The notes beneath the pieces were generated by a model, which saw only the letters and a list, made by a program, of their open reading frames with translations, made no database searches and was not told the origin of the DNA. Both the position numbers and the translations under genes were made by a program. From positions 1 through 41,832 of IMG/VR virus record IMGVR_UViG_3300042452_000139: a stretch of 41,832 bases of DNA; one strand, 5' to 3'. Positions 1,610 to 41,336 of the stretch are shown here, piece by piece; positions within the stretch are counted from its first letter, which is position 1, and each line of letters starts with the position of its first letter. Source of the DNA: a virus.

Positions 1610-1787
1610 CTTCCTCTCCTATGAACTCTAATGAGAAAATATCATGGTTTAAAATATCTGGATTCAACCATTCACTAAATTCAGATTGAATCGCATGGGC
1701 ATTCTCGAGATTTTCTTCACAGAGAGTATGAATGCGGTCAACTGCCCAATCATGAGTTGTCTGAAGAGTCTTTTCCAAAGTTTCCAT
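1599..1787 (-). CDS. Small acidic hypothetical protein (62 aa)
   Basis: The frame METLEKTLQ...FIGEEDDT sits between the GIY-YIG gene (38-base overlap) and the C39-like gene (11-base overlap). It is acidic, predicted mostly helical, and ends in EEDDT; there is no transmembrane segment. GAAAAGA a few bases upstream is only a weak ribosome-binding site, so expression may depend on translational coupling with the upstream gene. No family recognised. Reality is supported by its fit into the gap and the chain of overlaps rather than by homology. Confidence 0.6.
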   Translation of the reverse strand: METLEKTLQTTHDWAVDRIHTLCEENLENAHAIQSEFSEWLNPDILNHDIFSLEFIGEEDDT

Positions 1788-2199
1788 AATCTTTTCGCAT
1801 ATAGCGTCCTAGAATATTGCTATTGTAGTACGCCGGCGTTCCATCGTCAAGAGACTCGATCAACACATTATTTAGGAAGAGCTGTTTTGTCTCTTCGTAA
1901 TTGCATTGTCCTTTTGTTCTATGGAGACTAAGTATTGTTCTGTTGCAGGATGCTTTGCCCCAAAGTTTAACATCGGCTTTGAGTTCGGGACATGATCCAT
2001 AATAATTTTTCCAATCTGACTCTGATTTAACCTTTCTAGATTTTCCCTTCGGTGTGCGGAAAGACCAGAAATATTTTCTACCAATATAACTACGACCAGT
2101 TTTATTGCAATGAATATGATATACAAAACCAAAATTATCTTGAATATCAGAAGACTCAAAAATTTCCCCATTGAATCTCCAAGGGTTTTCATAACTCAT
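1750..2199 (-). CDS. GIY-YIG-like putative endonuclease
   Basis: 149 residues. The stretch FGFVYHIHC..TGRSYIGRKYF (about residues 23-44) is a degenerate GIY-YIG signature (first motif FVY, second YIG, with Arg41 following). Later conserved-looking elements are ESDWKNYYGS, RTILSLH and TPAYYNSNIL, which I associate with small free-standing phage endonucleases annotated as Seg/GIY-YIG-like. It probably nicks or cuts DNA and may promote its own spread (inference). A late-type promoter GATAAATA lies 23 bases upstream of the ATG. Placed directly upstream of the lysis genes, it has no evident intron around it. Confidence 0.75.
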   Translation of the reverse strand: MSYENPWRFNGEIFESSDIQDNFGFVYHIHCNKTGRSYIGRKYFWSFRTPKGKSRKVKSESDWKNYYGSCPELKADVKLWGKASCNRTILSLHRTKGQCNYEETKQLFLNNVLIESLDDGTPAYYNSNILGRYMRKDYGNFGKDSSDNS

Positions 2200-2222
2200 A
2201 CTATAAGATCTTTATGAGCTAC

Positions 2223-2230
2223 TATTTATC
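2223..2230 (-). promoter_or_regulatory. Candidate late promoter GATAAATA for the GIY-YIG gene and lysis cassette
   Basis: GATAAATA at 2230-2223, 23 bases before the ATG at 2199. It lies back to back with the plus-strand element at 2285-2292, making this a divergent late promoter region. Confidence 0.6.
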
Positions 2231-2278
2231 TTCAACGGGAACAAAGCGATTCTACTTATGTTTTGAGTGTTTGTCAAG
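2226..2278 (+). repeat. 53-bp upstream module, copy B
   Basis: Matches the minus strand of 38858-38910 without gaps at 43 of 53 positions: a perfect 20-mer at 2226-2245, a diverged 25-base middle (15 of 25) and a perfect TTGTCAAG at 2271-2278. Both copies point toward the following gene (here the plus-strand gene at 2316). TTGTCA resembles a sigma-70 -35 box. Confidence 0.85.
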
Positions 2279-2284
2279 GGGGTT

Positions 2285-2292
2285 GATAAATA
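2285..2292 (+). promoter_or_regulatory. Candidate late promoter GATAAATA, plus strand
   Basis: GATAAATA, 23 bases upstream of the ATG at 2316, the same spacing as the other late-type elements of this window. It follows directly after the repeated 53-bp block. Confidence 0.6.
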
Positions 2293-2684: not shown

Positions 2685-3026
2685 ATGACAGTATACACCA
2701 GTAATATTCTTATTCATACTGGAACAGACTTTGAGCAATCTTTCTTATTAGAAGATAGTCAAACTAATAGTGCTCTTAATTTGACTGGGTATCAAGGGTG
2801 TGCCCAACTTAAAAAATACGAATCTTCATCAAAAAGTGCTGATTTTACGATAGAATTTAGTAGCGATAGAACAACTGGTAGGGTTAAACTTCTTCTTAGC
2901 GCCACGTCCAGTGCAGCACTTAAACCAGGAAAATATTTTTACGATTTACTTTTAAGAAAACCAGACGGAACCACAACAAGAGTTATAGAAGGAACTGCGT
3001 TAGTTAAAAAATCAATCACAAGATAA
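2685..3026 (+). CDS. Probable virion/baseplate beta-sandwich protein, paralogue 2
   Basis: 113 residues. It aligns along its whole length with the preceding gene: V-Y-x-x-N-I at the start, DFEQSFLLED, LNLTGYQGCAQL, GRVKLLLSATSSAALKPGKYFYDLLLRKPDG and VIEGTALV. Similar proteins occur in cyanomyoviruses as small structural proteins of unknown role. AATAAATA at 2662-2669 could be a weak late promoter, otherwise it is cotranscribed with its paralogue. A bidirectional terminator follows directly. Confidence 0.75.
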   Translation: MTVYTSNILIHTGTDFEQSFLLEDSQTNSALNLTGYQGCAQLKKYESSSKSADFTIEFSSDRTTGRVKLLLSATSSAALKPGKYFYDLLLRKPDGTTTRVIEGTALVKKSITR

Positions 3027-37237: not shown

Positions 37238-38277
37238 TACTCAACCTCGCAAGCTTCTGAGTATATTTTTTGAAGTATTCCTTTGATTATGGATTTATCT
37301 CCTTCAAATTCCGCTTCATCAATATATCTATTCAAAATAGAAATAGTGTTTTCAGTTTCTTCAATCTCAAAATCTTCACCTTCTTGAATTTCAAAGTTTT
37401 CTACAATTTTGAGTTCTTGTATTCCAGAGGAATGTAACTTATCTATAAACTTCTCAAAATTCTTAGGTTCGGTTTTCTTCTTTACAATAACCTTTACAAT
37501 TTTACCTTGATATTCACGAGTATCAAATAACTTATAGTTTGTATCCTCATAATAAACATTATAAAAGAGTTTATAAGGATTGTTGATGGGAACAAACTCT
37601 AATGTATCAGTATCAAAAGTATGAAATCCACGAGTATCATTTACATCATTCCAGAACATCTCATAAGGATTTCCCAAATAGAAGATCTTTCCATTATTGG
37701 AACGAGTATGATAATGTCCTGAAAAAACAAGTTGAAACTTATCAAACAGATCAATATTCATTCCATCTTCCATCACGTGCCCACGATGTGCCCTGAATCC
37801 ATTCAGTTCAAGGTGACCCATTGCACATTTACAAGACGTATTCTGGACGACTTTAAAAGTGTTATCCTCATTCTCCTGATTAATCCAGGGAATAAAAAGA
37901 ACTTTGAGTTTATCTAGTTTTACTTCCGTAACCTCAGAATAAACTTTTACATTTTCATATTGCCTTAACAGTAAATCTACACTATTGACCGAGTTAGTAT
38001 TTTTATAGTAAGCAGTATGATTTCCAACAATTGTATGAACCGTCACTCCCATTTGTTGGAGACGATCGTAATAGTTTTCCTTTGCCCATTCCAATGCCCA
38101 CAGATCGATTGACCTACGGTTGTCGAAAGTATCTCCCATATCAATGACAGTTTTAATGCCATTCTCCTCCAAGTAAGGAAAGAACACTTCATCATAAAAC
38201 TTTTTAAAGTAATCGTGAAGAAACTTGGAGGACTTACGAGCTCCGAAATGCTGATCTGTAATAATGGCAACCTTCAT
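37237..38277 (-). CDS. gp47: Recombination endonuclease subunit (T4 gp47-like, SbcD/Mre11)
   Basis: 346 residues (T4: 339). Calcineurin-like phosphoesterase motifs in order: ITDQHFGARK (D7, H9), IDMGDTFDNR, TIVGNHTAYY, and FSGHYHTRS. This Mn-dependent nuclease works with gp46 on DNA ends for recombination-dependent replication and, in T4, host DNA breakdown. It begins with an ATGA overlap on the gp55 stop. Confidence 0.96.
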   Translation of the reverse strand: MKVAIITDQHFGARKSSKFLHDYFKKFYDEVFFPYLEENGIKTVIDMGDTFDNRRSIDLWALEWAKENYYDRLQQMGVTVHTIVGNHTAYYKNTNSVNSVDLLLRQYENVKVYSEVTEVKLDKLKVLFIPWINQENEDNTFKVVQNTSCKCAMGHLELNGFRAHRGHVMEDGMNIDLFDKFQLVFSGHYHTRSNNGKIFYLGNPYEMFWNDVNDTRGFHTFDTDTLEFVPINNPYKLFYNVYYEDTNYKLFDTREYQGKIVKVIVKKKTEPKNFEKFIDKLHSSGIQELKIVENFEIQEGEDFEIEETENTISILNRYIDEAEFEGDKSIIKGILQKIYSEACEVE

Positions 38278-38801
38278 CGGTTAGTCTTGTAAGCAACGTT
38301 GTCTTTGATGGTATTATAGTCGGAACTACTGCCAGAAAGCAAGCTGTCGTCAATCATCATAACCTCATCAAAACCAGTTCGTTCAATGATCTTGGTTTTG
38401 ATTTCCAGTTGCTTCTTCTCTTTCTGAATACGACGGAGAAAAGCGTAGTGAATGATTTGTGTAAAATATGCAAATGGATTCTTTGACTTTTCTGGATCAA
38501 AGTTGTGAATATACTGAACGCAGTTTTCAATGCCATCAGAGATCATATCGTCCCTGAACATATAGTTCACAAAGTTTGGTTTGTATGAAAGGTGTGTAGC
38601 GATTTTCAGAAAGCACTCTCCAAGATAATTAGAAATGGGTGGTTTACCTTCCCAATGCTTTGCTCTCTCTTCTTTGGGTTGCTTAGTTAAGTCTTTATCG
38701 TATTTCTTTTGATATGCAGTTTCAACTTTAGTTCTATAAACAATTAATGCCTCAAGTAACTCTTTGTTGTTTACATAATGTTCTGATTTCTTTTTGGACA
38801 T
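38274..38801 (-). CDS. gp55: Late-transcription sigma factor (T4 gp55-like)
   Basis: 175 residues (T4: 185). Recognised by HYVNNKELLEALI at the start, MISDGIENCVQYIHNFDPEKSKNPFAYFTQIIHYAFLRRIQKEKKQ, the reduced sigma region 2 with core binding and melting segments. It directs host RNA polymerase to TATAAATA promoters, which occur throughout this window. It has its own near-consensus sigma-70 promoter at 38838-38865 and lies first in the gp55-gp47-DUF3110-gp46 operon. Confidence 0.95.
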   Translation of the reverse strand: MSKKKSEHYVNNKELLEALIVYRTKVETAYQKKYDKDLTKQPKEERAKHWEGKPPISNYLGECFLKIATHLSYKPNFVNYMFRDDMISDGIENCVQYIHNFDPEKSKNPFAYFTQIIHYAFLRRIQKEKKQLEIKTKIIERTGFDEVMMIDDSLLSGSSSDYNTIKDNVAYKTNR

Positions 38802-38837: not shown

Positions 38838-38865
38838 ATTATAGCATACTTTTGGGGCTTGACAA
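38838..38865 (-). promoter_or_regulatory. Host sigma-70 type promoter for gp55 operon
   Basis: Minus strand: -35 TTGTCA (38865-38860), 16-base spacer, extended -10 TGC-TATAAT (38843-38838), 36 bases before the ATG at 38801. The best early promoter in the window; its -35 box is the end of the repeated 53-bp module. Confidence 0.8.
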
Positions 38866-38910
38866 CATCGAAAAAGATGATTAGAATAGGTTTGTTCCCG
38901 TTGAAGATAA
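38858..38910 (-). repeat. 53-bp upstream module, copy A
   Basis: Matches 2226-2278 (opposite strand) without gaps at 43 of 53 positions; the first 20 bases and the last 8 (TTGTCAAG) are identical. Here the module ends in the -35 box of the gp55 promoter. Confidence 0.85.
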
Positions 38911-38914
38911 TAAT

Positions 38915-39316
38915 CTAGCCTTCATTAGTACTCTTAAAGATTCTTTCAAGGCTCTTGCGAGCATCTTCTACGGTTGATATAAAACCCATCTTATCAGATA
39001 TTTTTACTTTACCGTCTAATTCAATATCTACGTCTTCATCATTAAGATATCTTTCGTAGAAGTGAATCATCTGACTTTCTTTAACTTCTGTCATTGTTAC
39101 GATCTTATCGTATTTGATGATAAAGAAATCATCAGAAGGTATTTCCATCCATGGCTTTACCTTTACATATTGACCAATATGATTTGAAACGACTTTCATG
39201 ATGACAGGATTTTGAAGAATAATGATAGGATCTCCATCATTTTCATCAATGCAAACTAATGCAAAGATCTCCTCACCTGTAACTAATTTGATTGCTGCGT
39301 GGAACTCTTCTCCCAT
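38915..39316 (-). CDS. Sm-like small cyanophage protein (133 aa)
   Basis: FHAAIKLVTGEEIFALVCIDEND, PIIILQNPVIMK, VKVKPWMEIPSDDFFIIKYDKIVTMTEVKESQMIHFYERY: a strongly beta-patterned N-terminal 90 residues with the same ordered features as the proteins at 24509 and 24259 (K-x-x-G-E, NP, PW, D-x-I-V-T), followed by a helical extension. An Sm/LSM-like barrel is likely. It is coupled to UvsW by a TAATG-type overlap and ends just before the gp55 upstream module. Confidence 0.75.
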   Translation of the reverse strand: MGEEFHAAIKLVTGEEIFALVCIDENDGDPIIILQNPVIMKVVSNHIGQYVKVKPWMEIPSDDFFIIKYDKIVTMTEVKESQMIHFYERYLNDEDVDIELDGKVKISDKMGFISTVEDARKSLERIFKSTNEG

Positions 39317-40779
39317 TAGTTTTTAAGCGGTATGTTTACAATATCATAATTAAAGTTTTCTTCGTTATAAACTTTGATTCTTTCGATTAAGTGATTGAGT
39401 GTATAATTTTTTCTTGACTTATAACTGATATCATCGGCAATGTCATATAGAGTTGCTTTTGTTTTATTGTCGCTTTTTCTTAGGACTCTTCCGATTGATT
39501 GGAGGTTTCTGATTCTTGATTTACTAGGGGAAGCAAAGATGACATTATGTAGATTTCTAATGTTAATACCAGTAGAAAAAGTCCCGTAAGAAGCAACGAT
39601 GATTGCATTATTTTCTTTCTCAGTGATTTCTCTGACTTTTTCTCGGTCCTCAGTATCTACACCACCGTGAACAAAGAACACGTGGCGATCTTCTGCGATA
39701 CTCTTATTTATGAGATCGTATAAAGGTTGTCCATGACCTTCGACTCTGGAAAATAGAATTAAAGTATTACCTTTAAGATCAATGGCAAGGTTCTTGATGA
39801 ACTTATTGCGTTTCTCGTGATTGATAATATACTGCACCTCATCTTCAAAAGTCTCAAACTTATTCGGTGGGTGTTTCAATAGAAGAATATTAATGTCCAG
39901 TTTGGCAACGTGACCTTTCTGCATCAGTTCTTCTGTGCGAATGATCTTATAAGAAGGTCCAAATAAACCTTCTAGAACCCACTTATGTGTCTGAGTGCCA
40001 TCAAGAGTTCCTGTAAATCCAAAACGATATTTTGCATCAGAAAGTTTTGTCATTATAGATACTAATGACTTTGATTTAAACTGGTGTGCTTCATCTCCAA
40101 CGACCACATTAAATCGTGAGAAATATTGTCGGGGAAGTTTGTAGATGGACTGCCAGGTCGTAATGATTACCTGCGAGTCCGTTTCTCTTTCTTTTCCAGC
40201 ATAGATCTTGTGGCAAAATGAACCCACATCCCACCCATAATCTGCAAAGTCTTTATACATCTGTTCTACAAGGGATGTCGTCGGAACGACTATCAGAGTA
40301 TTTTGTCCTTTCTCAACGTAATATCGGACAATCGAATATATCATCAACGACTTTCCAGAGGCAGTTGGAGATATCAACAACTTTCGATTATGTTTTAAAG
40401 CGTCGTATACTCCCTCAACTTGGTACTCACGGGGAGCATACTTGCAAATAGAAGTCATATAATCTTTTACACCTTCCTTTGAAATCATTTCATTGACTTC
40501 AAATGGAAGACCATAAAACTTGTTGTTTACAAACTCATAAGTATAGTCATGATTTTCACAGAACCGAGTGAGTTTATCTAGAAGACCAATATAAATCTCA
40601 CCAGTCTGAGTATTGAATAATCGTATTTTTCCATCCCAGTGTCTACTTCTATACTGGGGCATAAAACGACTATTGGGGACTTCAAAAGTAAATTGGTCCG
40701 CCAATTCATAGTAAACGTGAGGTTCCGCCTTTACTTCAAGATAAACCTCATTTTTTTTAGATATCACCAAATGAGACAT
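39316..40779 (-). CDS. uvsW: UvsW RNA-DNA and DNA helicase
   Basis: 487 residues (T4: 503). N-terminal ~100-residue DNA-binding domain (RHWDGKIRLFNTQTGEIY), then SF2 motifs: Walker A SPTASGKS, VVGDEAHQF (DEAH), GFTGT (motif III), and C-terminal SIGRVLRKS (motif VI). It unwinds R-loops and branched DNA, switching origin use to recombination-dependent initiation late in infection. AATAAATA 22 bases upstream fits the late expression of uvsW known in T4. Confidence 0.95.
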   Translation of the reverse strand: MSHLVISKKNEVYLEVKAEPHVYYELADQFTFEVPNSRFMPQYRSRHWDGKIRLFNTQTGEIYIGLLDKLTRFCENHDYTYEFVNNKFYGLPFEVNEMISKEGVKDYMTSICKYAPREYQVEGVYDALKHNRKLLISPTASGKSLMIYSIVRYYVEKGQNTLIVVPTTSLVEQMYKDFADYGWDVGSFCHKIYAGKERETDSQVIITTWQSIYKLPRQYFSRFNVVVGDEAHQFKSKSLVSIMTKLSDAKYRFGFTGTLDGTQTHKWVLEGLFGPSYKIIRTEELMQKGHVAKLDINILLLKHPPNKFETFEDEVQYIINHEKRNKFIKNLAIDLKGNTLILFSRVEGHGQPLYDLINKSIAEDRHVFFVHGGVDTEDREKVREITEKENNAIIVASYGTFSTGINIRNLHNVIFASPSKSRIRNLQSIGRVLRKSDNKTKATLYDIADDISYKSRKNYTLNHLIERIKVYNEENFNYDIVNIPLKN

Positions 40780-40801: not shown

Positions 40802-40809
40802 TATTTATT
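40802..40809 (-). promoter_or_regulatory. Candidate late promoter AATAAATA for uvsW
   Basis: AATAAATA at 40809-40802, 22 bases upstream of ATG 40779, beside the stop codon of the homing endonuclease gene. Confidence 0.6.
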
Positions 40810-41336
40810 CATCTCTTATAACCTTGCGATCTCCTCTCAGCGTAATATTTTTTAAGAGACTCACTTTTCTTTCTTTTTTCTTCTTCACTTTGTTTTTGAC
40901 CTGTTCTACTTTTATTGCCTTTCCCTATTTCAGATAATTTTTGACGGGTATCTTCGTTGTGAGATTGAACACCTTTTAAACCTTTGTTCCAAGCAGTCTT
41001 ACCTTTATGTGATTCTGACATTTTTTTCTTGCTTTCTTCCGTATGTTTTTTACCTTTCATACAGGCAAAACCTTTTTCTCCACCCTCCGTAACATTTACT
41101 AATATTCCGCCATCTATTTTTCTACCATATTTCATAATAAGTTCTTTTTCCTTTTCAAGAGCGCATTCTTCGGAAAGGTTATCCAATAAAATAACTATTT
41201 TTTCTTTATCTGGAATATTTACATATTTGTGAGTTTTCTTATTTTTTTGATATGCTCGTCTTCCAGTGCCCTTACCAATATAATAAGGAGTATCATCTTC
41301 TCTTAAATAAGCATAAACATAAAAATTATTTCTCAT
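40809..41336 (-). CDS. GIY-YIG homing endonuclease with NUMOD3 motifs
   Basis: 175 residues. Catalytic domain at the N-terminus: FYVYAYLREDDTPYYIGKGTGRRAY has Y-V-Y and Y-I-G with Arg following, and ALEKEKELIMKYG carries the conserved Glu. The C-terminal half holds NUMOD3-type DNA-binding repeats (GKKHTEESKKKMSESHKGK, and further QSHNEDTRQKLSEIGKGNKS, GQKQSEEEKRKKSESLKKYY). Free-standing element between uvsY and uvsW, genes that are adjacent in T4. It has its own TATAAATA promoter 21 bases upstream, after the uvsY terminator. Confidence 0.92.
   Translation of the reverse strand: MRNNFYVYAYLREDDTPYYIGKGTGRRAYQKNKKTHKYVNIPDKEKIVILLDNLSEECALEKEKELIMKYGRKIDGGILVNVTEGGEKGFACMKGKKHTEESKKKMSESHKGKTAWNKGLKGVQSHNEDTRQKLSEIGKGNKSRTGQKQSEEEKRKKSESLKKYYAERRSQGYKR

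Follow-up and report, generated by a model that had tools for sequence, protein, structure and literature searches.

Genes and the repeat at the two loci

The window, i.e., the whole stretch of 41,832 nt analysed here, contains a sequence that is repeated at two sites between genes. Copy A (2226-2278, plus strand) lies between the gene of a SegE-like GIY-YIG endonuclease (1750-2199, minus strand; PF19835, E = 2.8e-51; phrog_447) and a diverging pair of tail-fibre-assembly genes (2316-2660 and 2685-3026, plus strand; phrog_3304/phrog_1084), which has a GATAAATA late element at 2285-2292 (plus strand). Copy B (38910-38858, minus strand) lies between the gene of the late sigma factor gp55 (38274-38801, minus strand; phrog_234, E = 7.9e-65) and an Sm-like/phrog_471 gene located upstream of it (38915-39316, minus strand; PF16243, phrog_471).

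A first-pass annotation had described the copies as a 53-bp repeat that contains a perfect 20-mer and, equally spaced in both copies, TTGTCAAG; it had also noted a sigma-70 promoter of gp55, TTGTCA-N16-TATAAT, and the late element before the gene at 2316. All of these features are present in the sequence. Aligned without gaps, the copies are identical at 43 of 53 positions, and a simple binomial calculation puts the expected count of such a match, for a window of this length, at ~6e-7. The search of the window for the 20-mer, TTATCTTCAACGGGAACAAA, which had been proposed together with that description, returned exactly two occurrences (expected 0.01), even when up to three mismatches were allowed.

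A promoter on the opposite strand

On the opposite strand, both copies read as a strong sigma-70 promoter that is close to the consensus. The boxes, TTGACA-N17-TAGAAT, precede NNN-TTTGTTCCCGTTGAAGATAA, a conserved sequence that is the predicted transcript start. The two boxes agree with the consensus at 11 of 12 positions in copy A as well as in copy B. The promoter of copy A (2249-2277, minus strand), which is conserved upstream of segE, consists of a -35 box TTGACA at 2277-2272, a 17-nt spacer, and a -10 box TAGAAT at 2254-2249, and the conserved start region CGC TTTGT TCCCG TTGAAGAT AAATA follows at 2223-2248. In copy B the promoter occupies 38859-38887 on the plus strand (TTGACA at 38859-38864, a 17-nt spacer, TAGAAT at 38882-38887) and is followed by AGG TTTGT TCCCG TTGAAGATAA at 38888-38910. 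A position weight matrix and alignments place the predicted +1 at the G at 2242 (minus strand) and at the G at 38894 (plus strand), respectively, so that the predicted transcript would begin with GU-N4-G-UUGAAGAU.

The element thus has the features that define a sigma-70 early promoter, namely TTGACA and a TATAAT-like box that are conserved in position and separated by 16-18 nt. The conserved TTTGT...GTTGAAGAT exceeds what a plain sigma-70 promoter needs, which counts against reading the element as a simple promoter. No tRNA or tmRNA was found at the sites, and no Rfam covariance model matched there. Cyanophages are without alt/mod, motA and asiA; their early genes are believed to be transcribed with the unmodified host sigma-70, and their late genes from NATAAATA, the cyanophage late promoter (PMC2984593).

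Recurrence in T4-like cyanophages

An exact scan for the 20-mer over 2.9 million viral contigs gave 42 stretches. The 20-mer almost always runs on there into NNNATTCTA and is followed ~17 nt further by TTGTCAAG, while four matches (L007, L024, L026, L033) are unrelated and lie inside other sequence. A wider pattern scan gave at least 118 stretches. Among the matches listed, the reverse-strand pattern TTGACA-N17/18-TAGAaT-NNN-TTTGT-N4/5-TTGAAG was found in 69 distinct cyanophage instances, and in 172 in a wider set, both sets being selected by pattern. The spacer is 17 nt long in 60 of the 69 and 18 nt long in the other nine; again among the matches listed, the -10 box is TAGAAT or TAGACT and is followed by TTTGT and GTTGAAGAT. 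Three stretches (L051, L058, L087) carry the searched pattern only, the downstream part being absent.

When reference genes were placed around the sites, the following contexts were recognized: (i) in the interval that separates gp55 from the Sm-like/phrog_471 gene, toward whose 3' end it is directed; (ii) ahead of segE and co-directional with it, segE being inverted in some contigs and in S-SRM01; (iii) in the leader of a helicase gene; (iv) back-to-back with glutaredoxin; and (v), in a few contigs, facing the anti-restriction gene phrog_36653. Complete or near-complete genomes contain about one to four full copies (three in S-SKS1, four in S-SRM01, three in each of two IMG/VR genomes and one in S-SM2). 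Diverged copies occupy the gp55 position in Syn9 and S-PM2; in the latter, two copies were found, at gp55 and at S-PM2p213/p214.

Further samples were chosen by protein and not by motif; all consist of the query's closest relatives, which are phylogenetically non-independent. At 76 of 78 gp55 loci the promoter was present, its boxes deviating at no more than one of 12 positions. It was also present in 50 of 55 distinct segE leaders, and the element in 44 of 57 helicase leaders. The presence of the promoter, its direction, its recurrence in a few contexts, and the overlap of its -35 box with that of gp55 (see below) are evident from sequence and conservation. We consider it very probable that each T4-like cyanophage genome carries a small set of near-identical early-type promoters for host sigma-70 with a conserved start, located on the strand opposite to that read earlier.

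Copy B and the gp55 promoter

The gp55 promoter (38838-38865, minus strand) stands back-to-back with copy B, and the two -35 boxes overlap by 5 bp. The same 5-bp overlap is found in 68 of the 78 loci of the gp55 sample. TTGACA is exact in all 76 loci that have the antisense promoter, and TTTGT comes next in 61. At six loci (L246, L248, L250, L264, L266, L269) the best gp55 -35 box lies elsewhere and the antisense promoter is intact; therefore, the latter does not simply result from palindromy of the gp55 -35 box.

Copy B and its relatives lie opposite to the Sm-like gene and read into its 3' end, where an antisense RNA would be produced. No clear terminator was found close downstream of copy B; there is a weak one at 39488. 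Because the -35 boxes overlap, RNA polymerase bound at one of them is expected to exclude another polymerase from the other, and the pair could then serve as a switch for early gp55 transcription in which the two promoters exclude each other. We infer both this exclusion and the antisense action from the arrangement of the sites. The widely conserved pair of promoters next to gp55, whose -35 boxes overlap, together with the small set of look-alike RNA starts elsewhere, offers a concrete and directly testable control point. Note that a NUMOD3/homing-endonuclease-like ORF (40809-41336) is inserted between uvsY and uvsW in the same part of the window.

Copy A and the segE leader

Copy A is predicted to give an early segE transcript. 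Its leader contains a second GATAAATA late element (2230-2223, minus strand) and, further downstream (2193-2220, minus strand), a predicted hairpin formed by AGCTCATA (2220-2213) and TATGAGTT (2200-2193) that covers the segE start codon (2199-2197). The hairpin has a folding energy of -8.4 kcal/mol and a modest z of -1.7, and its arms are conserved in relatives. A late promoter between the early start and the start codon, ATAAATA, is present in 46 of the 50 distinct promoter-bearing segE leaders. In folding predictions for 50 leaders, with the late start assumed, the probability of an unpaired segE AUG was 0.13 for the early RNA, 0.60 for an RNA starting below GATAAATA, and 0.45 for shuffled sequences. 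The hairpin may make the start codon inaccessible until a shorter mRNA arises from the internal late element, as in T4 I-TevI.

In many relatives the -35 box of the segE promoter lies in the loop of a terminator-like hairpin of the preceding gene, and the T-run serves as the spacer; loci such as L310, L330 and L336, with TTGACA in the hairpin loop, have the form of a fused terminator-promoter. In S-SRM01 (segE at 179360-179827) and in several contigs (L009, L035, L037) segE has the reverse orientation, so that transcription from the promoter would enter its 3' end in antisense. Because of these inversions, a "segE promoter" is not the sole form of the element.

The helicase leader

Most of the helicase leaders that carry the element have an intrinsic-terminator-like hairpin with a T-run near +80, less clear in some, and then a second TATAAT. 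The prediction from this arrangement is a free-standing RNA about 70-120 nt long, the start in the helicase leader probably giving a small terminated RNA of ~80 nt. GUUGAAGAUGAG and AAGACACUUUAAGAACCGUCCAC are conserved in the predicted RNA, and the one example that was folded had no unusual folding energy (z -0.1). The element is not universal in this context, since it is lacking in the leaders L432, L443-445, L450, L455-460, L462 and L466.

Copies in host genomes

When 251 genomes of the host family (picocyanobacteria) were searched under relaxed conditions, 12 had matches, as against four control matches. About eight of the 251 genomes were accepted by eye as having a genuine copy, with one site each (L389-L394, L398, L399). 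Genes found near several of these copies encode a resolvase, an integrase-like protein, a transposase, DruA, and a ParB/methyltransferase-like protein. The sites may be satellites, defence islands or remnants. No clear ORF is seen at the host copies for a few hundred bases. The best copy comes from a single-cell genome of Synechococcus; gp55 was not found in that genome. An origin of the element as an ordinary Synechococcus promoter was considered and rejected: a genome-wide scan gave 13 matches, of which one is in Synechococcus and the rest are probably due to chance.

A broader, tentative proposal, which we regard as possible but rather less probable than its negation, is that the copies at gp55, segE, helicase and glutaredoxin form a dispersed family of early small or antisense RNAs that share their 5' end and have a co-changing dyad around +1, and that the same element in picocyanobacterial mobile islands perhaps answers or interferes with the phage.

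Alternative readings

The dyad is made up of positions near -5/-4 and +5/+6, which co-change around the predicted +1 and tend to remain complementary (haplotype shuffle, p ~0.0002; left and right in nearest-neighbour pairs, Fisher p 1e-4). Such co-change could arise by exchange of blocks between copies, or it could mark a protein-binding or structural site. The start region might accordingly be also an operator, bound at the dyad by a phage regulator (SegE or other) that shuts the set down, and there is a precedent in I-TevI, which binds its own promoter and exerts autorepression (PMC2988022). However, the half-sites differ between copies of one genome (G001), which is unlike a single sequence-specific operator, and that form of the proposal was rejected; in addition, the excess of complementarity is small within the gp55 sample alone, and block replacement between copies would produce co-change too. 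On balance, we judge an operator or structural role of the start region to be unlikely.

At an R-loop origin, such as T4 ori(uvsY) or ori(34), replication is primed by a noncoding transcript that starts at a promoter. Many copies of the element are antisense or noncoding, copy B adjoins uvsW and is near uvsY, and the host copies are near mobile-element genes, all of which would suit such origins. Nevertheless, an AT-rich unwinding stretch downstream is not consistently present, the GC content of +15 to +115 ranging from the 1st to the 94th percentile, and on this point the candidate was rejected. Moreover, no turn of the cumulative GC skew is seen at the sites, and one of the contexts is that of an ordinary mRNA. 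This makes replication origins a very improbable explanation.

Also very improbable, and already largely contradicted, is the reading of the first-pass annotation, in which an activator of gp55 and of the virion gene at 2316 binds the 20-mer, the site having been transplanted between the two genes, and each copy faces its gene. It is true that both genes lie downstream in that orientation and that gp55 has a TTGTCA-TATAAT promoter, but the conserved bases make up a complete promoter in the opposite direction, pointing away from gp55 and from the gene at 2316; an activator site in the earlier orientation was rejected on this conservation. Copies in helicase leaders, and segE copies with a co-directional upstream gene, have no such gene in that orientation. 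Nor does the module link gp55 with the virion pair: segE of many relatives has the module with no virion pair found adjacent, and there are more copies at helicase and glutaredoxin. What stands of the "transplanted promoter/activator-binding region" is a repeated promoter module, its direction and the genes that it serves having been wrongly assigned. A mere trace of recent duplication, transplantation or rearrangement in this phage is hardly credible, since the element occupies the same few positions across diverse and diverged Kyanoviridae, even though both window copies share the TCCCG block, which is usually variable elsewhere. On the sequence evidence, the element is an old early promoter and RNA start, not an activator site joining gp55 to virion genes.

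Relation to known systems

The element resembles the sigma-70-type early promoters of the T4-like cyanophages S-PM2 and Syn9 (PMC2984593, PMC3037559) in its -35/-10 consensus, in the use of an unmodified host RNA polymerase, and in the combination with NATAAATA. It differs from the others in that each genome has only a few such promoters, which form a subset with an additional conserved start; several members are antisense or noncoding. No prior description of the element as a family was found in the literature surveyed, although single Syn9 start sites may have been described previously. How early, middle and late timing is achieved in T4-like cyanophages without MotA/AsiA and Alt/Mod is described as unclear in a review (PMC2984593).

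CfrI of S-PM2 is an experimentally shown antisense RNA at psbA and a homing endonuclease (PMC2984593, PMC12197685). Like the predicted antisense RNAs of the element, it is an endonuclease-associated antisense transcript at gene 3' ends in a T4-like cyanophage; unlike CfrI at psbA, the copies of the element in S-PM2 sit at gp55 and S-PM2p213/p214. In T4, the early RNAs of I-TevI, segB and gene e (lysozyme) form a hairpin at the start region and have an internal late promoter (PMC2988022, PMC3014915). The long early RNA of copy A is likewise predicted to form a start hairpin, with a late promoter within the leader. In contrast to these systems, the hairpin of copy A covers the AUG itself, and its early promoter is dedicated to its gene, whereas the T4 systems depend on upstream read-through.

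Other promoters with conserved starts were seen in the same genomes. In complete genomes, many other early-type promoters have in common, downstream of the -10 box, a start region that resembles AGGTAANCAA. A second family of promoters whose start is conserved, TTGACATAAT...ATTATGTCT TATAAT ... GTGTGAAGGAAGTG, occurs at 184654 in S-SRM01, 34229 in G001, 218423 in G002 and 53118 in S-SKS1; its member in S-SRM01 precedes a porin gene.
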